Origin: Candidatus Gastranaerophilales bacterium
GTDB lineage: Bacteria; Cyanobacteriota; Vampirovibrionia; Gastranaerophilales; Gastranaerophilaceae
Length of the DNA: 51,567 nucleotides
Direction: 5' to 3'
Assembly: GCA_947588785.1 (NCBI GenBank)
Contig: CANPZN010000004.1
Coordinates: 1 to 51,567, forward strand
Part shown: piece by piece, positions 1,266 through 50,968 of the stretch
Layout of the letters: every line of letters starts with the position of its first letter
Position numbering within the stretch: the stretch's first letter is position 1
The notes under the pieces: model-generated
Database searches by the model: none
Seen by the model: only the letters and a program-made list of their open reading frames with translations
Told to the model about the DNA's origin: nothing
Position numbers and translations under genes: made by a program

Positions 1266-1528
1266 AAAACTCCCCTTTATAAATCTGTTTTTTATATTAA
1301 TTTATACTGGTGTTGTATTTGTCTGAATTTGTAAAAATATTTTTTCAGATAAACTATACTCCTATATTATATATCAATATTGAATATAGTCTAGTTGATT
1401 AAGATATGAAAACTTTGACTTCTTCAAAATTTACATTAATTATTAATAAATATCATTCAATCAGATGTATTTTAAGAATATTAGATGTAGCATAATAAAA
1501 ATGTAAAATTTTAATTTTTTGAAATAGT
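1266..1528. other. Divergent intergenic region between pxpA and fliJ
   Basis: 263 AT-rich bases between two divergent genes, so it should hold promoters for both. I see no tRNA, clear terminator or strong sigma-70 pair that I would defend. A TATATTATATATCA stretch near 1360-1373 is a plausible AT-rich promoter element but is not distinctive in this base composition. Confidence 0.4.
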
Positions 1529-1987
1529 ATGCCATTTAGATACAGACTGCAGAAAGTATTAGATTTTAGAATAAGAAAGAAAGAAGAACAACTTCAGGAA
1601 GTAATAAAAGCAAAAAATGAAGTAGATAAAATTCAAGCTATAATTGATGAAAATAATAGTGAAATTGCCGGAGTTATTAAAATAATGAGAACTGCTCAAG
1701 ATTTCAGATTAATGGATTCTTATGATAAATATCTTAAACATCTTTATGAAAAGGCTGATGAATTGGAAAAGCAAAAACAAGAAGCTGTAAAATTATGGGA
1801 AATTGAAAAAGAAAAACTTGTAAAATGCGAAAAAGAAGTTAAAGTAATGGAAAAACATAAAGAAAAATCAAGAGAAATCTATTTGGAAGAAGAACGTGCA
1901 ATTGAAAATAAGCAGTTATCTGAAGTCGCAGTACAGAAATATTTTGAAAGAACACGTGCAAAAAAAGAAGAAGAAGGCGAAGATTAA
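1529..1987 (+). CDS. fliJ: Flagellar export protein FliJ
   Basis: 152 residues, the usual size of FliJ. The N-terminus MPFRYRLQKVLDFRIRKKEE matches the conserved FliJ opening (F-x-YRLQKVLD-x-R). The rest is almost entirely a highly charged Lys/Glu-rich coiled coil, as expected for this soluble chaperone-escort/ATPase-stalk component of the flagellar type III export machine, which sits at the inner face of the export gate with FliI and FliH. It heads a three-gene flagellar run (FliK-like at +11 bases, hook/rod protein next). No strong Shine-Dalgarno is visible before the ATG. Confidence 0.85.
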   Translation: MPFRYRLQKVLDFRIRKKEEQLQEVIKAKNEVDKIQAIIDENNSEIAGVIKIMRTAQDFRLMDSYDKYLKHLYEKADELEKQKQEAVKLWEIEKEKLVKCEKEVKVMEKHKEKSREIYLEEERAIENKQLSEVAVQKYFERTRAKKEEEGED

Positions 1988-1997
1988 AGAGGTGTAA

Positions 1998-2612
1998 ATG
2001 AAAATAAATTCCCAATTAAGTCATGAAATAGATAACAAAGATGATGTTGTACTTCGACCTGAAGATATTCAAGTAAATTCAAATATAAATATGCCATTTT
2101 CCGGTATTTTACAGGGACAAGTAAATTTAAATGACCAAAATCAAGAAGAATCTGATATATTAGCAGATTTTAATTATGATTCTTTATTAATGGATATTAA
2201 AGATGCGGAATTTTTTATAAATTTAGCTCAAGATGGTCAATTTTCGCTTTCAACTGCCGAAAATGAAAATTTTGGTCAGTTGATTCAATTAAAAATTGCC
2301 CAGACGGAAGTTACTCAAAAATCTGCTGTTGTTACAAATAAGTTAGTTGAATTAATAGAGAAAGCTCATAGTACCCAAAAACCTGTTCGTATTTCATTTG
2401 ATAATGATGTATCCGTGATTTTAAAAATAGATAAAAATGGGAAAATAACGGCAGAGTTTATTCCGGGCAGTATGGAAGTAGAAAATTATTTAAGAAATAA
2501 TATTGCTTTATTAAAACAAAAATTTGATAATCAAAATTTGCCATATAATGATCTGTTTTATAGACAAAATAGCAGGCAAGACAGAAGAAAAAATAAAAAT
2601 AGAGGAGAGTAA
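1998..2612 (+). CDS. FliK-like flagellar hook-length control protein
   Basis: 204 residues. The N-terminal half is acidic and polar and lacks a recognisable fold. The C-terminal part (about residues 130-195) has the FliK C-terminal domain pattern: VRISFDNDVSVILKIDKNGK, then AEFIPGSMEVENYLRNNIALLK and a QNLP segment. In FliK this domain senses hook length and switches export specificity. The position between fliJ and a hook-family gene supports the call. It is much shorter than classical FliK (about 400 residues), so it could be a minimal or divergent form. AGAGGTG lies just upstream of the ATG; the next gene starts 2 bases after the stop. Confidence 0.6.
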   Translation: MKINSQLSHEIDNKDDVVLRPEDIQVNSNINMPFSGILQGQVNLNDQNQEESDILADFNYDSLLMDIKDAEFFINLAQDGQFSLSTAENENFGQLIQLKIAQTEVTQKSAVVTNKLVELIEKAHSTQKPVRISFDNDVSVILKIDKNGKITAEFIPGSMEVENYLRNNIALLKQKFDNQNLPYNDLFYRQNSRQDRRKNKNRGE

Positions 2613-2614
2613 TA

Positions 2615-3448
2615 ATGCGTGATTCTTTTATTAATGCATTAAATACACAAAAAGTTACACATGATTGGGTTACCAGTATATCTGAAAATCTTGTCAATGT
2701 CTATACACCCGGTTATAGGGAACGTAAATTTACCTTTAAAACATTTTTAAACGGTTCTGTCGGGGATGATACTTTAAGAAATGTAGGACAAGGAAAATCA
2801 TCACCCGGTACATCCGATGAAAATATATATTTAGAAGGTTCCGGTTATTTTGTTTTAAGAAATGATAAAGGAAGAATTGTATATACAAGACTCGGCGAAT
2901 TTAAATTTGATGGTGATGGGGTATATAGAAGTTCTGACGGACAGGCTGTACAAGGTTATATATTGAATGATAAGGGTGAAATAATGAACGGAGCAAAACC
3001 GATTGATGCTGAATCCTTTGTTGATACTGCCTTTGATGGTGGTGCTGCTTCTGTACCGACTACAAACATTAAATTATGGATTGATCCAAGTAATGGAAAA
3101 TATCTTGGCAAATATGAAGAATTTGAATTTAAAGATGATGGTATTTTGTATGGAAAGGCTGATGGCGGAAAAATAAAAACTCCTTTATATAAAGTAGCAA
3201 TAATTAATTTCCATAATCCTCAAAAATTATACCAAGTAGCAGATGGACAATATATAGAAACTGAAGAATCAGGAAAACCTGTAGTAGGCAGAGGTGAAGT
3301 AAGAGGTGGGCTGATTGAACTTTCTAATGTCGATTTCGATGCTAATACCGCATATTATCAGCAAGCTCAAGTACAATTGGAAATGGCTAATCAATTGATA
3401 AAATCTCATAAACAATTATTACAAAATATTGTAGCTATGCTTGAGTGA
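2615..3448 (+). CDS. Flagellar hook / basal-body rod family protein (FlgE/F/G type)
   Basis: 277 residues. The N-terminal rod-type segment carries NLVNVYTPGYRERKFTF (usual N-x-x-N-x-x-TPGY/F). The middle has GSGYFVL, YTRLGEFKFDGDG and AVQGYILN motifs of the D1 domain. The C-terminus has LIELSNVDFDANTAYYQQAQVQLEMANQLIKSHKQLL-like coil, the helical zipper that polymerises rod and hook. The length fits FlgF/FlgG or a short FlgE rather than a full-sized hook protein, so I do not choose among them. It has a strong GAGGAGAG ribosome-binding site overlapping the end of the FliK-like gene. It would be exported through the flagellar apparatus without a cleaved signal. Confidence 0.8.
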   Translation: MRDSFINALNTQKVTHDWVTSISENLVNVYTPGYRERKFTFKTFLNGSVGDDTLRNVGQGKSSPGTSDENIYLEGSGYFVLRNDKGRIVYTRLGEFKFDGDGVYRSSDGQAVQGYILNDKGEIMNGAKPIDAESFVDTAFDGGAASVPTTNIKLWIDPSNGKYLGKYEEFEFKDDGILYGKADGGKIKTPLYKVAIINFHNPQKLYQVADGQYIETEESGKPVVGRGEVRGGLIELSNVDFDANTAYYQQAQVQLEMANQLIKSHKQLLQNIVAMLE

Positions 3449-3479
3449 TTTTTAATATTTCTTAACGCAAAATCTTTTA

Positions 3480-3501
3480 TTTTAAGTTTTTTTACTTAAA
3501 A
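3480..3501 (+). terminator. Weak AT-rich hairpin after the flagellar genes
   Basis: TTTTAAGT (3480-3487) can pair with ACTTAAAA (3494-3501) across a six-T loop. It lies 31 bases after the hook/rod gene stop and just before the next gene. The stem is almost all A-T, so terminator strength is uncertain. Confidence 0.3.
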
Positions 3502-3514
3502 AAGGTTTCATATA

Positions 3515-4447
3515 ATGTTTGTTCACTATCAAGCCATATTAAACTTGAATAAATATTTGCATAGAAATTCTTGTAATCTGTCATTTGCTAATAATCAAAA
3601 AGGTAAAATGCAATCGGATATTGAAACAAAAAGTGTATTAAATCCGGTGTCGCACTTTTGTGCCGATTCATCGTTGCCGTTTAATTGTTCACCTTTTGAA
3701 ATCGTCACTCCAAAATTTCGTTCATGTTACTTATCTCAAAATATTCTCGGACGTTCTTTATTTGAATATAACTCACCAAATAATATTGTTAAGAATGAAA
3801 AAAAATCAGATTATTTAAAATCTTTGCCAGAAATTAATTCAAAACAAATAAAAGCAAATTTTTTACCATCTTTTGGACGTTATAAAAATGTTGGAACATC
3901 ATATATTAAAGACAGAAAAACAGGTAGTGAGATAAAAGCTGTTGTAAAAAAAGATAAAATAGGATCTTATATTTCTTTTAAATTATTTGTTGGAAAAAAA
4001 GAAGTTGGGTTTTTAGATATGGATTCGGCTTCTGTTGTTCCTGAAGTTGATTTTATAGTAACAGAACAAACAAATGCTTTCCCTAAAGTTCTTCATTTAA
4101 GAACTTTAGAAGGTGAAAAATATAGAGGTATAGGAACAGAATTAATAAAAATCGCAATTCAGGAAAGTTATAATTGCGGAAAAAAAGGAAATTTATGGCT
4201 TGAGGCTAAAGAAGGTTATGCAGAAGGATTATCAGATTATCGAAGCGGAGAAAACCCTATTCCGTTTTATTATAAATGTGGATTCTATTCCCCTATAGAA
4301 AAGGTTGATAAACAAATAAGAGAAAAATTATCTGATAAGGATTTTAGAAATCTACCAGAATATGAACTTTTAATACTGGATTCAAATGCAAGAGATAATT
4401 GGTTGAATGAATTAAGTGAAAATCCAATTTTACAATCAAAATTTTAG
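3515..4447 (+). CDS. GNAT-like acetyltransferase domain protein with a long N-terminal extension
   Basis: 310 residues. The second half resembles a GNAT fold: LHLRTLEGEKYRGIGTELI is the acetyl-CoA pyrophosphate-loop pattern (R-G-x-G-x-E/A), followed by NLWLEAKEG and NPIPFYYKCGFYSP, the typical FY-x-K-x-GF end strand. The first about 120 residues are polar, Ser/Asn-rich and of low complexity, with no signal peptide or membrane segment. The substrate cannot be told. The 3' end overlaps the convergent LUD gene by 4 bases. Part of a putative dispersed repeat (3636-3678) lies inside the N-terminal extension, suggesting that region tolerates insertions. Confidence 0.6.
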   Translation: MFVHYQAILNLNKYLHRNSCNLSFANNQKGKMQSDIETKSVLNPVSHFCADSSLPFNCSPFEIVTPKFRSCYLSQNILGRSLFEYNSPNNIVKNEKKSDYLKSLPEINSKQIKANFLPSFGRYKNVGTSYIKDRKTGSEIKAVVKKDKIGSYISFKLFVGKKEVGFLDMDSASVVPEVDFIVTEQTNAFPKVLHLRTLEGEKYRGIGTELIKIAIQESYNCGKKGNLWLEAKEGYAEGLSDYRSGENPIPFYYKCGFYSPIEKVDKQIREKLSDKDFRNLPEYELLILDSNARDNWLNELSENPILQSKF

Positions 4448-5100
4448 AAACCTAAATCTTCATTAACTAAAATAACTTTAATTCTTTTTTCAGGGAAACA
4501 AAGACGTGTAATTACTATGTTTGAGCAAATAGAATCTTTTGAAAAACAGTCACTGCAATAGCCTGTCGAAAAGCAAGGAGTTTCTTTTATGTTATTGCCT
4601 GCAACTCTTTGAATATTTATCGGAGCAGCATATTGTCTGGCTCTTTTTATAGCATCATCAAACGTAGATACAATTTTGTTTATACCTGCTACAATAATGA
4701 CATTTTTTGGCCCATATAACAAAGCAGCAACTCTATTCCCGACACAATCAATATTTACGAGTTCTCCTGTTTTGCTGATCGCATTTGTCCCCATTATATA
4801 TGTATCACACAATAAAGATTGTTTATAAATTTCAGCCTTTTCTTCAGCAGTTACTGCTAGATCTCTATTTATGACATTATAACCATTATTTATAATATGA
4901 TTAAGAAGACCTATTTCTATTATTGACATTGAACCGCCCCAAGCAATTTTGTCTTCCTTTGAAATTAGACTTAATGCAATAGAAAGAGCATCTTCTTTTG
5001 TTTGAGCATAATAAGATTCAAAATGTCTTTTATTAAATGCAGAAATAACCTGATTCGCAAGTTTTTGTCTTTGTATTTTTATATAATTATTTGATCCCAT
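4444..5100 (-). CDS. LUD-domain protein (LutC/YkgG-like, DUF162)
   Basis: 218 residues, a complete LUD domain. Visible signatures are AWGGSMSIIEIGL near residue 54, DTYIMGTNAISKTGELVNID near 100-120, GNRVAALLYGPKNVIIVAGINKIV near 122-145 and a cysteine cluster TPCFSTGYCSDCFSKDSIC near 175-190. LUD proteins include LutC of the lactate-utilisation operon, but stand-alone members with the C-terminal cysteines are common and poorly defined. No lutA/lutB neighbours are present, so lactate oxidation is not supported by context. The cysteines suggest metal or Fe-S binding (inference). It is convergent with the GNAT-like gene. Confidence 0.75.
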   Translation of the reverse strand: MGSNNYIKIQRQKLANQVISAFNKRHFESYYAQTKEDALSIALSLISKEDKIAWGGSMSIIEIGLLNHIINNGYNVINRDLAVTAEEKAEIYKQSLLCDTYIMGTNAISKTGELVNIDCVGNRVAALLYGPKNVIIVAGINKIVSTFDDAIKRARQYAAPINIQRVAGNNIKETPCFSTGYCSDCFSKDSICSNIVITRLCFPEKRIKVILVNEDLGF

Positions 5101-5207
5101 TTAAATACCTTTCAAAATTATATTCTATTAATTTATTGAAAAAATTACAATAAGAATGAAAAAAATTTAATATTTTTCATTAATTTATTATGAATTTTCT
5201 CGTACAA

Positions 5208-6899
5208 TTATTTGTTTTTGTTTTTATAATAACTTTCTAAAAAACCAACAGAACAAGCTTTATAAATATGTTCATCAAAATTATCAGTATTTAAATTAAA
5301 TCGATTACTGTCATAAAATTGTAATAAATAATCTTTTTGATCCTTAATAACTTCTTTATCTGAAGTTGTGAAACCTTGTTTGATGTTATTCTTATAAATA
5401 AAATCTATTTTATATTTCTTTAATATTTCACGAAGTATAGCTTTGTATCCTATTCTATTTACTTTATATTCCAGTGGTAAATTTAGAGCAAATTCAACAA
5501 TTCTATAATCTAAAAAAGGATTCCTTAATTCAATTGAGTTGGCATTAAGTATTCTGTCCCAATATCTTAAAACTTTTGGAAGGTTATAATATAATATTAA
5601 ATTTAGCAAATATTTTAAATATAAATTTTTATCAATTTTATTAGGATGAAGCAGATAATTTTTAATTTGATTTTTTTCATCAACACATAGTGGTCTTTTT
5701 ATATTCTTTTTATAAAGATTAAGAATATGTAGAGCCAGTAACCACCTTTTTTCTCTTATTGCATGTCCTATTGCAAGCATGAAACCTTTATAATATCCAA
5801 AAATTTCATCGGAACCATGTCCTTCTATAACCATCTGATAACCCATTTCATGAATTTTTTTGTAAACACTATAATAACCGGCATCTGATATACAACATGG
5901 GGCATTTAAAGCAAGAAGTACTTGTTTATAATCTTCTTTAAAACTATCTTTTGAATATCTAATTTTAACTATATCATCTTTATATTTTTCAGCTAATTTT
6001 TTTACTCTGCTATATTCGTCTATATTTTTGTCTTCATTTGAATATGTAAAAGCTTTAATATTATAACCGAGTTTTTCTTTTATCAATGTGTATATTATGG
6101 AAGTATCTATTCCTCCTGATAAAGTCATAGCAATTGGAATTTTTGAATCACATCTTAATCTTATTGAATCAGTTAAAAGATTTTCAAAATAGTCAATTAT
6201 TTCTTTTTTATTTTTGTAATTTAGATTTAAACTTTTTACATTGAAATCATTGAATGTATAATATTGTTTTGTTTTTATTTTATTGTCTTGTGTTATTTCA
6301 ATATATTCTCCGGCATGAACTATTTTTATATTTTTATTGAGTATTTTTTTCTCAAAATCTAAACTATTATAAACTAATAATGTATTAACAAATGATTGAT
6401 TAAATTCAAACGGAAAATGTAAAGCCTTTGTTAAAATAGATTCTGATGATGAAAAAGCATAGGAATCACCATTATTATAATAAAATAATTGCTTAACTCC
6501 GAATCTATCATTAACTAAAAAAATTGAACCTGTTTTCTTTTCATAATAAGCAAAAGAAAAAATACCATTTATCTTATTAAGAATCTCTAAACCATATATT
6601 TTAAGCAGATGTAATAATACTTCTTCGTCAGAATTATAAAACAATTGAACATCTGTAAGATATTCTTTTTGCAATTCTTTATAATTGTATATTTGTCCGT
6701 TAAAAGCTATTATATTTCCATCTAAGACCATTGGATCAAAATCATTATTAGATGAATAATTTTTTGCAAGTCTTGCTTGACAAAAAGTGATATTATCTTC
6801 AGATTGAATAAGAAAATTATTTAATTGATTATTAAGTAGTTCTGATTTAACTTCACTAATATTTAAATTAATATTTTTATATCCAAATATTCCGCCCAT
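5208..6899 (-). CDS. Asparagine-synthetase homologue lacking the glutaminase cysteine (putative RiPP amide-forming enzyme)
   Basis: 563 residues with the two-domain layout of AsnB. The N-terminal Ntn domain starts MGGIFGY, where active glutaminases have MCGI: the catalytic Cys2 is Gly. The glutamine-binding NGE is also NGQ (67-69). The C-terminal ATP domain looks intact: SGGIDTS at 261-267 (PP loop), EGHGSDEIFG at 359-368, SIELRNPFLD at 455-464 and Lys486 in IGYKAILRE. So it should adenylate a carboxylate but cannot release ammonia from glutamine. Known relatives of this kind (lasso-peptide cyclase McjC, beta-lactam synthetase) use an internal amine instead. Its ATG overlaps the radical SAM stop (TAATG), so it belongs to the peptide cassette. 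Predicted reaction: lactam or amide formation on the 55-residue peptide (inference). Confidence 0.85.
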   Translation of the reverse strand: MGGIFGYKNINLNISEVKSELLNNQLNNFLIQSEDNITFCQARLAKNYSSNNDFDPMVLDGNIIAFNGQIYNYKELQKEYLTDVQLFYNSDEEVLLHLLKIYGLEILNKINGIFSFAYYEKKTGSIFLVNDRFGVKQLFYYNNGDSYAFSSSESILTKALHFPFEFNQSFVNTLLVYNSLDFEKKILNKNIKIVHAGEYIEITQDNKIKTKQYYTFNDFNVKSLNLNYKNKKEIIDYFENLLTDSIRLRCDSKIPIAMTLSGGIDTSIIYTLIKEKLGYNIKAFTYSNEDKNIDEYSRVKKLAEKYKDDIVKIRYSKDSFKEDYKQVLLALNAPCCISDAGYYSVYKKIHEMGYQMVIEGHGSDEIFGYYKGFMLAIGHAIREKRWLLALHILNLYKKNIKRPLCVDEKNQIKNYLLHPNKIDKNLYLKYLLNLILYYNLPKVLRYWDRILNANSIELRNPFLDYRIVEFALNLPLEYKVNRIGYKAILREILKKYKIDFIYKNNIKQGFTTSDKEVIKDQKDYLLQFYDSNRFNLNTDNFDEHIYKACSVGFLESYYKNKNK

Positions 6900-8230
6900 T
6901 AATCGTTCTCCAATGCCTTTTTGTATGCTTTAGCATCTTCACAACACATTTTAGATTTTTTTAGAAATCCGTTTTTCTGTTCAAACATTGAAAAAGTTGG
7001 GCAGTATTTGCAATAACTGCAATAATCATATTTAAAACATTCTTTTAAATTACTTTTTATAAATTTTTTTCTAAAATCAGGTAGTACTTCATTCCAAATT
7101 TGATTAAGTGAATTTTCATTAAAATTTCCAAGAATGTAATTAAAATCTATACAAGGCGTGATATTAAGATTTGGCATTACATTTAGAATTGTATTCCCGG
7201 CCGGACATACAATATCATTAGATTTATAAGTCTTTTCTATTCTGATATGTGGTAATTGTTCATATAATTTTTCTAATTTTTTAGGAGTTAATCTAATTTG
7301 AGAATTGTTATTATTTATATTTTTTATAAAACGATTTGAACTTAAAAAATAAGAAGCACCTATAGATTGTGCGTAATTTTTAACATCTTCATTTTTGTCA
7401 TAATTAATTTTCAATAGTATGTTATTAATAGTCACATTGATGTTATTTTCTCTGAGTTTATTTATAACATGTATGGTTTTTAAATGAGAATTTTTAATAC
7501 CGGTAATATAATCATGGATTTTCGGATCCATACTGTAAAGACTTATTTTTACTTCATGAGGATATAAATTTATTATATGATTTAATAAGTTACTATCGTC
7601 ATAGAATATTTGCCCATTGGTAAGAATTCTCAAAGAAATATATCTATTTCTTATATATTTTGCAATATTAAAAAAATCTTGGTTAACGCTACATTCTCCC
7701 CCGGAAAGAGTAATGGTATTTACACCTAAATTAGCGGTTTCATCAATAATTTTTTTTGCATTGTTAAAAGATATATAAAAATTTTGCATATTTTTGGGAT
7801 TATAGCAATGTTTACAATTTAAGTTACAATTATACGTTAACTGCATATATAAATGCTCAAGCTTATTAAAAGATATTATACTTTTAGATTTATAATTATT
7901 ATAAACCCCAAAATTTGGAGAATTTTCTAAGATATGTTGAGTGAGAAAGTTAACATTATTAATTTTTTTTATATTTTTAATTTTAATAATATTAAAATAT
8001 GCTAATTCATTTAAAAAATCTGAAATATTACATTGAATTTTATTGATATTAGCATAATTTAATAACTGCTTGTAGTTTTGAGTTTTAACTATGATATTCC
8101 AAAGATTAGATAATTCACCTTTTAAAATGTAATGAATATGCTTAGATTCATCAATGATATAACTTATAGATTTATTTAAATTTTCATTGTATGTCCTTGT
8201 TGATAAATAATTTGGTAATGTTATCATCAT
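6899..8230 (-). CDS. Radical SAM/SPASM peptide maturase with N-terminal RRE-like domain
   Basis: 443 residues. Residues 1-90 look like a PqqD/RRE winged-helix peptide-binding domain (hydrophobic pattern SISYIIDESKHIHYILKG then FLNELAYFNIIKI). The radical SAM core has CNLNCKHC (Cys135, 139, 142) for the SAM-binding 4Fe-4S cluster and SGGE at 176-179. The C-terminal SPASM-type region has Cys342, Cys360, Cys398, 404, 407, 410 and Cys429/430, enough for auxiliary Fe-S clusters. Such enzymes install thioether, C-C or other crosslinks in ribosomal peptides (family knowledge). It starts 52 bases after the Cys/Gly-rich peptide gene and overlaps the asparagine-synthetase homologue by one base. The ATG doublet at 8230 leaves the exact start open by one codon. 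Very AT-rich coding sequence. Confidence 0.88.
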   Translation of the reverse strand: MMITLPNYLSTRTYNENLNKSISYIIDESKHIHYILKGELSNLWNIIVKTQNYKQLLNYANINKIQCNISDFLNELAYFNIIKIKNIKKINNVNFLTQHILENSPNFGVYNNYKSKSIISFNKLEHLYMQLTYNCNLNCKHCYNPKNMQNFYISFNNAKKIIDETANLGVNTITLSGGECSVNQDFFNIAKYIRNRYISLRILTNGQIFYDDSNLLNHIINLYPHEVKISLYSMDPKIHDYITGIKNSHLKTIHVINKLRENNINVTINNILLKINYDKNEDVKNYAQSIGASYFLSSNRFIKNINNNNSQIRLTPKKLEKLYEQLPHIRIEKTYKSNDIVCPAGNTILNVMPNLNITPCIDFNYILGNFNENSLNQIWNEVLPDFRKKFIKSNLKECFKYDYCSYCKYCPTFSMFEQKNGFLKKSKMCCEDAKAYKKALEND

Positions 8231-8282
8231 AGTCTATATTTTCTATTTATTTTAATAATAAATCGTTTAAGAATTAAATCTA

Positions 8283-8450
8283 TTATTTTGGACCGGAACA
8301 ACCTCCACCACTTTTTCCATTGTCGCAACAAGATTCATAGGCTATTACAGAATCATTATCAAATTCTATAATATCTCCAAATAGTTCTTGTAGTAATTCA
8401 TTTGAAATTCCATCCATTGTATTATCTAAGTTATTTTCATTATTTTCCAT
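8283..8450 (-). CDS. Cys/Gly-rich RiPP precursor peptide (55 aa)
   Basis: A 55-codon gene whose ATG shares one base with the ATP-grasp stop (TAATG at 8448-8452 read on the minus strand). The leader (1-39) is acidic and Asn-rich with an amphipathic LLQELFGDIIEF segment at 19-30, typical of a recognition helix for an RRE domain. The C-terminal core is SCCDNGKSGGGCSGPK (40-55), with Cys41, Cys42, Cys51, Asp43 and Lys46 as possible crosslink sites. There is no signal peptide and no GG cleavage site before the core. It is flanked by a modification enzyme on each side, the defining layout of a RiPP locus. I do not recognise the core from any described family. Coding status is inferred from coupling, composition and context. 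Confidence 0.85.
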   Translation of the reverse strand: MENNENNLDNTMDGISNELLQELFGDIIEFDNDSVIAYESCCDNGKSGGGCSGPK

Positions 8451-9424
8451 TATTTGTTCCCTTTTAAATTTAACATTTTACCTAATTTTAAATTCCAATC
8501 TTTGTATTCAATTGGGAAATCAATAAACCCTGAGAAAGGAGTAAAAGTCATTTCATTAAAATAAAGCTGATTATTGTAAACTAACCAATCAACTCTAACT
8601 AATTTAAAATTTTTTGCTAATTTTTTACTAAGAGAAGTTGCGTTTATAATGATATTATCAACTGGTTCATGTTCTAAAACATAATGCTCCTTAAATTTGA
8701 AGTTTAAATTATTAAATTTATCATCATAAGTGCTAACAATAGGCGGAGCATAGTATTTTATTTTTTGAATTATTTTAGGTTCACCATTAAAACAATAAAT
8801 TTCAATTTCCATAGGGAGTTTATTATCATTATCTCTAAGTAATTGTTCAATTATAATTTTAGGAGAAATATCTTTATACTGAAGTTCTAAACCTGACCAA
8901 AAACAATAAGATTGATTCATCCAACCTGCAAATTGTTTTTTTAATAAATACTTGAGATTAGTATTATTTAAAAAACTATTTTTATCTTTTATTATAAATT
9001 GCCATTTACAACCGTGATTACATTTAATAACGAACCTATTAGGAAGGTTATCAAAATTTATTTCATCATAACTGTCATAAACATTAAAAATCGGTTTTAA
9101 ATAATTTTCTCCTATACAATTTTTGACATAATCTCTTACAAGAAATTTGTCAGTAAGTTGAGTTTTTAAAGAAGTTGAATCATAAAGTTTTAGATATTGA
9201 ATTTTTTCATTAAAAGTTTTTGGATTTTTTAAATTTAACCTATAGCCAACCATATTAAAAAAAAGATGTTTTAAATAATCAGGATATTGTTTTTCAGGAA
9301 GAGATAATTGGAATAGATAATTATTATAAGAACCTAAAATAAACGCATTAGGCGGATATGCTCTTCCCCCCCCAGTGCTGAGCGAGTCAAAGAAATTATT
9401 TAATTTATCTATTAAACTAAACAT
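8450..9424 (-). CDS. TupA-like ATP-grasp protein of the RiPP cassette, with an intragenic G8 tract
   Basis: 324 residues of the ATP-grasp TupA-like family: LNLKNPKTFNEKIQYLKLYD around 63-82, DKFLVRDYVKN around 92, LPNRFVIKCNHGCKW around 133 (ATP-grasp lysine) and the C-terminal VDWLVYNNQLYFNEMTFTPFSG with metal-binding Glu/Asn. Family members are linked to ATP-dependent amide formation, such as teichuronopeptide synthesis and polysaccharide modification. Here it starts the peptide cassette and is coupled to the precursor, so ligation or crosslinking on the peptide is a reasonable inference. Codons 17-20 are encoded by a run of eight G (9366-9373), which would switch the gene off with any indel. 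The start has an AAAAGGTG site 8 bases upstream and a good promoter. Confidence 0.8.
   Translation of the reverse strand: MFSLIDKLNNFFDSLSTGGGRAYPPNAFILGSYNNYLFQLSLPEKQYPDYLKHLFFNMVGYRLNLKNPKTFNEKIQYLKLYDSTSLKTQLTDKFLVRDYVKNCIGENYLKPIFNVYDSYDEINFDNLPNRFVIKCNHGCKWQFIIKDKNSFLNNTNLKYLLKKQFAGWMNQSYCFWSGLELQYKDISPKIIIEQLLRDNDNKLPMEIEIYCFNGEPKIIQKIKYYAPPIVSTYDDKFNNLNFKFKEHYVLEHEPVDNIIINATSLSKKLAKNFKLVRVDWLVYNNQLYFNEMTFTPFSGFIDFPIEYKDWNLKLGKMLNLKGNK
9366..9373. repeat. C8/G8 homopolymer inside the ATP-grasp gene
   Basis: Eight consecutive C on the plus strand (G8 in the sense of the gene), encoding Gly-Gly-Gly in STGGGRAY near residues 16-23. The current length keeps the gene open. Such tracts are typical slipped-strand contingency sites. 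Confidence 0.7.
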
Positions 9425-9446: not shown

Positions 9447-9475
9447 AGTTTAGTTCAAATTATCTAAAAAGTCAA
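9447..9475 (-). promoter_or_regulatory. Sigma-70-type promoter for the RiPP cassette
   Basis: On the minus strand TTGACT (9470-9475) and TAAACT (9447-9452) are separated by exactly 17 bases. The -10 box ends 22 bases before the ATG of the ATP-grasp gene, leaving room for the AAAAGGTG ribosome-binding site. It is the first gene of the cassette, so this promoter would drive all four genes. Confidence 0.6.
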
Positions 9476-41958: not shown

Positions 41959-41976
41959 GGGGGGGGGGAAAAAAAA
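41959..41976. repeat. G10A8 homopolymer tract
   Basis: Ten G directly followed by eight A, preceded by GTGTAGGT. Same architecture as the G10A10 tract at 50791-50810. Confidence 0.85.
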
Positions 41977-50686: not shown

Positions 50687-50968
50687 TTTATTTGAATAAA
50701 TTTCTATGCTAACTTGTATGAGTTGTGAATGGCGTTTTTTGTAGTGGTGGAGGAGAGTAGTGATCAGTAGTGTTTGTAAGATTGTGTACTGGGGGGGGGG
50801 AAAAAAAAAACAACCTTTGTAAGAGGAAATAGCGAATGTAAGACGAAGTTGAACGAGCCAACTACCCCCCCCCATGTATGAAAAGCAATTTTAATACGCA
50901 ACGCCCGAAGTAAACTTCATTCCTTTTATCCCCCTACCATCATAGAAAAGGAAACTTAAGATTCTACA
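50687..50968. other. 282-base intergenic region with G10A10 and C9 tracts
   Basis: No ORF of note. Holds G10 (50791-50800), A10 (50801-50810) and C9 (50865-50873), and a short palindrome GAAGTAAACTTC (50907-50918). It is visibly richer in G and C than the intergenic sequence elsewhere in the window. Confidence 0.5.
50791..50873. repeat. Inverted pair of homopolymer tracts (G10A10 ... C9)
   Basis: G10 at 50791-50800 followed by A10, and C9 at 50865-50873 64 bases after G10. Flanks are similar when inverted: TGTACT before G10 and CATACAT before G9 on the other strand. The G and C runs could pair in RNA. Confidence 0.7.

Follow-up and report, generated by a model that had tools for sequence, protein, structure and literature searches.

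A multicopy, probably phase-variable family of candidate modified peptides with conserved leaders and hypervariable cores in gut Gastranaerophilales

What would four adjoining genes make when one of them encodes a peptide of only 55 amino acids, and is this set of four a unit that occurs elsewhere? The genes lie in a stretch of 51,567 nucleotides from Candidatus Gastranaerophilales bacterium (assembly GCA_947588785.1, contig CANPZN010000004.1, positions 1 to 51,567), which is the window of this analysis and is contig C4 of a 2.1 Mb assembly in 153 contigs that is 93% complete. The original prediction, made from the letters of the window, was a cassette for a ribosomally synthesized and post-translationally modified peptide (RiPP) that consists of an ATP-grasp ligase, a Cys/Gly-rich precursor, a radical S-adenosylmethionine (rSAM)/SPASM enzyme and an asparagine synthetase (AsnB) homologue lacking its catalytic cysteine. 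The four minus-strand open reading frames (ORFs) are indeed intact and run from 9424 down to 5208; the two predicted TAATG overlaps are at the ATP-grasp/precursor and rSAM/AsnB junctions, and 52 nt separate the precursor from the rSAM gene.

We consider it probable that this cassette belongs to a phase-variable, multicopy RiPP family of gut Gastranaerophilales, with enzymes that act as proposed below. Relatives of the rSAM protein (E <= 1e-20, own genome included in the counts) are present in 19 of the 41 genus genomes, in 11 of 288 genomes sampled from the family and in 7 of 386 sampled from the phylum, one of these seven being outside the family at 24% identity. Eight of the nine loci in named genomes come from Candidatus Gastranaerophilales metagenome-assembled genomes named Lapin; the ninth, a distant Oscillospiraceae match (L034) whose rSAM genes are not accompanied by ATP-grasp matches, was put aside. 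At the same threshold, the rSAM protein has no match on known plasmids.

Fifty-three wide loci were read, the window among them; each has an rSAM match, and many are cut off by contig ends. At 28 places, an ATP-grasp ORF is directly before a family rSAM gene, and in 24 of these an ORF that matches the leader profile lies between the two, as a RiPP-type cassette would have it; 16 of the precursors that the profile finds had also been used to build it, and the 24 include ORFs in L044 and L077 that are disrupted or have no usual start. At a 25th place, L038, the leader between the two genes is interrupted by a stop. By gene order, the recurring unit is an ATP-grasp ligase, a putative precursor and an rSAM enzyme. 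The window genome has a second such cassette (L035, with a 48-aa precursor), a truncated rSAM remnant (L036) and two more ATP-grasp genes with other neighbors. A single genome may have as many as six rSAM matches, fragments among them, and the precursors differ where they can be seen. The predicted set of four genes survives as a set of three: the AsnB gene adjoins an rSAM gene at only one of the 53 loci, the window, which rules it out as a constant part of the cassette. On this adjacency, the Cys-less AsnB is an add-on to the three-gene unit.

The window peptide has no match in NCBIfam or Pfam. The predicted precursors share a plan: a leader with the consensus M...NLSxEEINELFxDIIExPD, an [ILV][AS] junction and about 20 variable residues. 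The Cys, junction and identity counts given here are for 25 precursors. Five were dropped, namely L038 (stop in the leader), L077 (no usual start found), L102 (split rSAM gene) and the two in L044 (frame broken at C tracts). Of these, L038 and L077 have Cys and L102 has none; as far as the L044 ORFs stay in frame, the first has one Cys and the second none. Two subtypes with other leaders, whose loci are among the 53, are also outside all precursor counts: the MKKLYI type (L047, L052, L098 and L101) and the MLKIS type (L046, L048, L049, L050, L094 and L096). The latter loci have rSAM genes after Cys-holding peptides of 32-36 aa and no adjoining ATP-grasp match; they represent another rSAM peptide family within this bacterial family.

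The [ILV][AS] junction is present in 24 of the 25 precursors, whereas three control segments have this pattern in 5, 0 and 1 of the 25; the junction also served to define the start of the core, and so the core borders are approximate. Cys is present in all 25 cores, where 7.6 would be expected from local proteins (P 7e-14), and it accounts for 10.8% of core residues and 0.1% of leader residues. No other residue is common to all counted cores. The cores cannot be aligned, and their mean identity is 0.22 versus 0.21 after shuffling, compared with 0.47 each for the leader and the rSAM protein (300 pairs). Even the five closest rSAM pairs (72-85% identity) have core identities of 0.15-0.59, and some near relatives share a core (L076 and L078). 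In genome G306, two copies have 54 of 54 identical leader nucleotides but different cores. Judged from these alignments, the predicted core is hypervariable and the leader is conserved.

The nonsynonymous rate (dN) in the leader is below the synonymous rate (dS) in 22 of 23 usable pairs, taken from 25 close pairs that are not independent. Among 16 cassettes, 77 pairwise DNA segments reach the precursor start. Of these, 74 end inside the leader, no further than nt 95: the end is at nt 50-95 in 35 and at nt 0-36 in the other 39. Three continue through the core. As for the original prediction, its "Cys/Gly-rich" core shrinks to a core that has Cys. It had also named, as findings that would count against it, a core that is not conserved among relatives and rSAM/AsnB pairs without a small peptide gene between ATP-grasp and rSAM. 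The cores are at the shuffled level, which rules out core conservation as a criterion for the RiPP idea, and three ATP-grasp/rSAM neighbors have no leader ORF. By its own criterion, the lack of core conservation would refute the prediction; we read the pattern instead as a sign of diversifying cores, because purifying selection acts on the leader, which is conserved.

The cassettes also display a pattern of homopolymers. In 895,223 bases examined, there are 35 runs of at least seven G or C. A sense-strand tract of G8-G11 is present at 15 of 23 ATP-grasp 5' ends, versus 245 of 20000 random 340-nt windows (1.2%) drawn from the same loci with the tracts included; P is about 1e-23, a nominal value since the copies are related. 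The 23 starts are 22 beside an rSAM gene and one (L099) that is not, with truncated ones, L053 and L091 left out. Several copies have an ATG, about 20 codons of similar sequence and then the tract. In the window (G8), L075 (G10), L082 (G11) and one L083 copy (G9), a start before the tract reads in frame into the rest of the gene; in seven (L040, L043, L051, L074, L077, L092 and the other L083 copy), the starts before it are out of frame; and in four (L035, L081, L088 and L102), only a GTG at the tract edge is in frame. In L083, the tandem copies are almost identical at the 5' end, yet the one with G9 is in frame and the one with G10 is not. Thus, as in a contingency locus, a long homopolymer lies in the coding start and its length sets the frame. 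Since the frame status differs between copies, we read the tract pattern as slipped-strand phase variation. Neither the tract in the ATP-grasp gene nor the multicopy family was part of the original prediction. In L044, C11 and C9 tracts are at the leader/core border of the two precursors and are followed by Cys-containing core-like frames.

Other tracts in the window are outside large ORFs. A G10 tract (41959-41968) is upstream of an ABC-transporter ATPase gene, which we take to be LptB-like, and a G10 tract (50791-50800) and a C9 tract (50865-50873) are between small ORFs and a gene that is presumably cation-efflux-like.

The ATP-grasp/precursor pair extends beyond the rSAM cassettes. At 1e-15, the ATP-grasp profile has matches in 34 of the 41 genus genomes; the sister genomes G142 and G295 have 61 and 60, some of them fragments or at contig ends, and neither has the window-type rSAM. 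The wide loci that were read contain 99 ATP-grasp ORFs in all, and 58 of these are followed by a leader-like ORF within 250 nt. The rSAM cassettes apart, these leader-like ORFs comprise 37 precursors (29 in G142) with a mean length of 108 aa; all have Cys past residue 30 (mean 7.4). The common unit looks like an ATP-grasp ligase plus a putative precursor, with rSAM as a frequent partner and AsnB as a rare one. The family-wide ATP-grasp search scored eight candidates per genome at 1e-90, which leaves room for weaker relatives elsewhere. Among the G142 loci read, such a tract is at an ATP-grasp start in one (L183), and so switching would not be general to this larger family.

Two other arrangements were seen. 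One locus of the window genome (L150, G000:C23:5500-12000), at 2062-5351, has an interrupted ATP-grasp gene, a 62-aa Cys-containing precursor, a 341-aa rSAM protein and a 374-aa protein that matches no NCBIfam model. In L166 (G305:C85), at 1449-5752, an ATP-grasp gene is followed by genes for a PurD-like ATP-grasp protein and a similar-looking second protein; its two precursors have a related leader, LTxxQINELYDD, and C9 tracts are within and after the first.

The rSAM protein was predicted to have an N-terminus like a RiPP recognition element (RRE) and SPASM cysteines, and both are supported. Pfam finds Radical_SAM (9.5e-19) and SPASM (7.6e-7). An AlphaFold2 model from a 12-sequence alignment has a predicted local distance difference test (pLDDT) score of 84, with residues 1-80 as a block at 87-95, and residues 9-78 have the beta3-alpha3 topology of an RRE. 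The top Foldseek matches are SuiB, SkfB and CteB (400-498 alignment columns, 15-18% identity), and a profile search of the PDB finds SkfB at 1.2e-20; relatives found by profile searches include PqqE and the mycofactocin maturase. No NCBIfam model reaches its cut-off among the best 25 of 53 matches. With its RRE-like domain, the modeled window enzyme would be of the RRE-bearing rSAM/SPASM maturase type. In L043 (6460-9282), two tandem rSAM genes have an identical internal protein stretch and differing ends, as after gene conversion or in an assembly chimera.

For the ATP-grasp protein, ATPgrasp_TupA is the only model that passes its Pfam cut-off, and so it is not of the MdnB/C type. Lys134, Arg277 and Asp279 are invariant in the 23-member alignment and Glu291 is nearly so; we take these to be ATP or metal ligands. 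Foldseek places its model with D-Ala-D-Ala ligases and other ATP-grasp structures, and its profile has no match among PDB sequences. Phage records have ATP-grasp matches in four cases, unannotated and at most 36.5% identical. The TupA-like domain of Campylobacter jejuni Cj1438 forms an amide on a glucuronate carboxylate, according to the available text of PMC11800379.

From these properties we infer the chemistry, export and bioactivity of the cassette products only conditionally. The RRE of the rSAM enzyme would bind the leader while the SPASM/rSAM center modifies the core, most likely by a thioether that joins a core Cys sulfur to carbon; this is favored because no residue but Cys recurs in all of the counted cores. 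The TupA-like ligase would make an amide on a carboxylate, more likely that of the peptide C-terminus or of a partner molecule than a core Asp or Glu, because some cores have neither; 5 of the 25 have no acidic residue, and so a lactam or ester on core Asp/Glu cannot be the general chemistry of this ligase. In the window, the Cys-less AsnB is probably responsible for a second activation, one that forms an amide or lactam, with core Asp/Glu and Lys as possible substrates. A general cellular protease may cut near the [ILV][AS] junction. Finally, slippage in the G-tract would toggle the ligase, and perhaps the whole operon by polarity, so that a population shows a changing set of products.

Several observations weigh against this reading. 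Between ATP-grasp and rSAM, L053 has a different small Cys/Gly-rich ORF, and L088 and L091 have no leader ORF at all. Some rSAM proteins (e.g., L044, L084, L087 and L092) have short or aberrant N-termini, and therefore the RRE is not universal. The AsnB gene is beside rSAM in the window only, as indicated above, and the ATP-grasp model has moderate confidence (pLDDT 72). Eight of the 23 ATP-grasp starts lack a tract, and tract lengths are those of the assemblies. As the original prediction had noticed for the window cassette, no exporter or protease is recognized beside the cassettes, where neighbors were read by eye and partly searched; there is no C39 peptidase domain in the window assembly, and no lasso B1/B2 leader protease among the ORFs searched beside the window cassette. 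The single promoter proposed in front of the cassette is not supported: a 9-of-12 match is at 9447-9475, but promoter-like matches in this AT-rich window are not clearly commoner than chance (53 vs 44.5 +/- 6.4), and so the scan is uninformative.

Could AsnB be a genuine fourth enzyme, making the window cassette the type of a four-enzyme RiPP class? Its TAATG overlap with the rSAM gene would suggest so, as would the sequence of its glutaminase half. Pfam finds Asn_synthase (2e-42) and GATase_7 (5e-27), and the protein starts MGGIFG, so that the predicted replacement of Cys2 is borne out; features of the glutaminase half are lost (Cys2 to Gly, RGPD, RLxIxD), and SGGID of the synthetase half is retained. 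In NCBIfam, ordinary asparagine synthase (4e-77) is the best match and outranks the lasso cyclase model (1.8e-31; 109 bits against a cut-off of 525), although both are below cut-off. The genus has six AsnB homologues, of which four lack Cys2 (Gly, Gly, Ala and Ser). Cys-less homologues are in genomes with rSAM matches in 5 of 5 cases and the two Cys-bearing ones are in genomes without, a weak co-occurrence (hypergeometric P 0.016, or 0.033 without the window genome) that is uncorrected for kinship. However, in the other four genomes the Cys-less gene is among other genes and not beside a cassette in the stretches read, twice adjoining a gene that we take to be RadA-like. With adjacency at a single locus, we regard a fourth enzyme as possible and lean somewhat against it.

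The other alternatives concern the peptide itself. It might be coupled to a surface glycan or scaffold as a phase-variable, antigen-like decoration instead of a diffusible RiPP; the TupA-like ligase would then link an amine group of the peptide with a uronic acid or, alternatively, attach an amine to the peptide. The characterized TupA-like domain acts on a polysaccharide uronate (available text of PMC11800379), surface structures typically have phase variation driven by repeats, as in C. jejuni (available text of PMC8437040), and the lack of a dedicated exporter and the cores without acidic residues fit as well. However, the cassettes are mostly between unrelated genes and outside recognizable glycan operons (by eye), and every precursor has its own ligase gene, and so we think this unlikely. 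It is quite improbable that the cassettes are decaying or selfish repeats whose small ORFs have no product: broken copies exist (the L036 remnant, the L038 leader stop and the split L102 rSAM) and contig ends often fall inside copies, but the dN/dS pattern of the leader, the invariant cluster and ATP-site residues and the Cys in all counted cores argue otherwise. Least probable of all is that the small ORF encodes the precursor for a cofactor or for a peptide that binds metal, like PqqA or that of mycofactocin; the kinship to PqqE and the mycofactocin maturase would favor it, and cores that share nothing alignable except Cys speak against it, as do the multiple rSAM matches in a genome with their differing precursors. 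Returning to the RiPP family, a fuller picture would have dispersed ATP-grasp/precursor cassettes, dozens in some genomes, with shared leader and enzymes, cores replaced from the leader border, and G/C-tract switching, in the ligase gene or where leader meets core, above all in the rSAM-bearing type. Each cell would then have its own changing set of modified peptides, possibly placed on a surface glycan by the TupA-like ligase. We offer this whole picture tentatively, with slightly more doubt than belief.

Table 1. Features of the cassette, in window positions
Feature	Position	Strand	Comment
ATP-grasp gene	8450..9424	-	TupA-like ligase, 324 aa, first cassette gene; PF14305 E 2.6e-31, 23-member family alignment, Foldseek
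8-G tract (sense strand)	9366..9373	-	Putative site of phase variation, 17 codons past the start of the ATP-grasp gene, which is open at G8
Precursor peptide gene	8283..8450	-	55 aa; leader profile match 5.6e-10 (itself one of the 16 seeds), homologous precursors
Conserved leader, residues 1-29	8364..8450	-	Acidic, NLSxEEIxELFxDIIE type
Junction FDNDSVIA	8340..8363	-	[ILV][AS] motif, candidate cleavage site
Predicted core YESCCDNGKSGGGCSGPK	8286..8339	-	Hypervariable between paralogues
Radical SAM/SPASM maturase gene	6899..8230	-	443 aa; PF04055, PF13186, Foldseek, PDB profile search
RRE-like N-terminal domain of rSAM protein	7991..8230	-	beta3-alpha3, AlphaFold2 model
CxxxCxxC cluster motif (C135, C139, C142)	7805..7828	-	Invariant in 27 aligned sequences
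SPASM region, seven invariant Cys (342, 360, 398, 404, 407, 410, 430)	6941..7207	-	27-sequence alignment
Asparagine-synthetase homologue gene	5208..6899	-	Dead-looking glutaminase half, SGGID synthetase motif present

The hypervariable cores, the copy number and the probable switching are of greater interest than AsnB. If the reading is correct, this would be a RiPP system run like antigenic variation, with one leader, many unrelated cores and on/off slippage, as well as a natural core library handled by homologous RRE-rSAM and ATP-grasp enzymes. It would tie TupA-like ligases to ribosomal peptides, and gut Gastranaerophilales would gain a testable tool of competition or host interaction. Among the matches listed in the open-access literature, there is no RiPP with a TupA-like ATP-grasp, no phase-variable RiPP and no RiPP study of Gastranaerophilales.

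Among known systems, SuiB, SkfB and CteB, which are RRE-bearing rSAM/SPASM maturases, resemble the window enzyme in fold, SPASM cysteines and a leader with a small core; they differ in their low identity to it, and here the partner is a TupA-like ATP-grasp and the cores are hypervariable. As in sactipeptides and ranthipeptides, Cys is in every counted core. In grasp-with-spasm systems, an ATP-grasp and its precursor occur with a SPASM rSAM. Graspetides of the microviridin type likewise have an ATP-grasp beside the precursor, sometimes with a SPASM rSAM (available text of PMC8939145). However, the cassettes have no conserved acidic acceptor in the core, nor the pairs of Asp/Glu with Ser/Thr/Lys, and their ligase is ATPgrasp_TupA rather than MdnB/C; the term TupA is absent from the available portion of that survey's main text (PMC8939145). 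Lasso cyclases resemble the window AsnB in homology and in an inactive-looking glutaminase half, as do beta-lactam synthetases, which are AsnB-like with an inactive glutaminase half; unlike in lasso peptides, the cyclase model is under its cut-off and AsnB is adjacent at one locus only, and unlike asparagine synthetase B, the window protein lacks the catalytic Cys at position 2. The TupA of teichuronopeptide is an amide-forming ligase. It and Cj1438C (available text of PMC11800379) share the Pfam domain and, by prediction, amide formation with the cassette ligase, which is paired here with a ribosomal precursor instead of glycan genes. Finally, this family is like the prochlorosins, which also have a conserved leader and diversified cores. 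One promiscuous enzyme serves many prochlorosin precursors (available text of PMC10783134), whereas here each precursor has its own enzymes.

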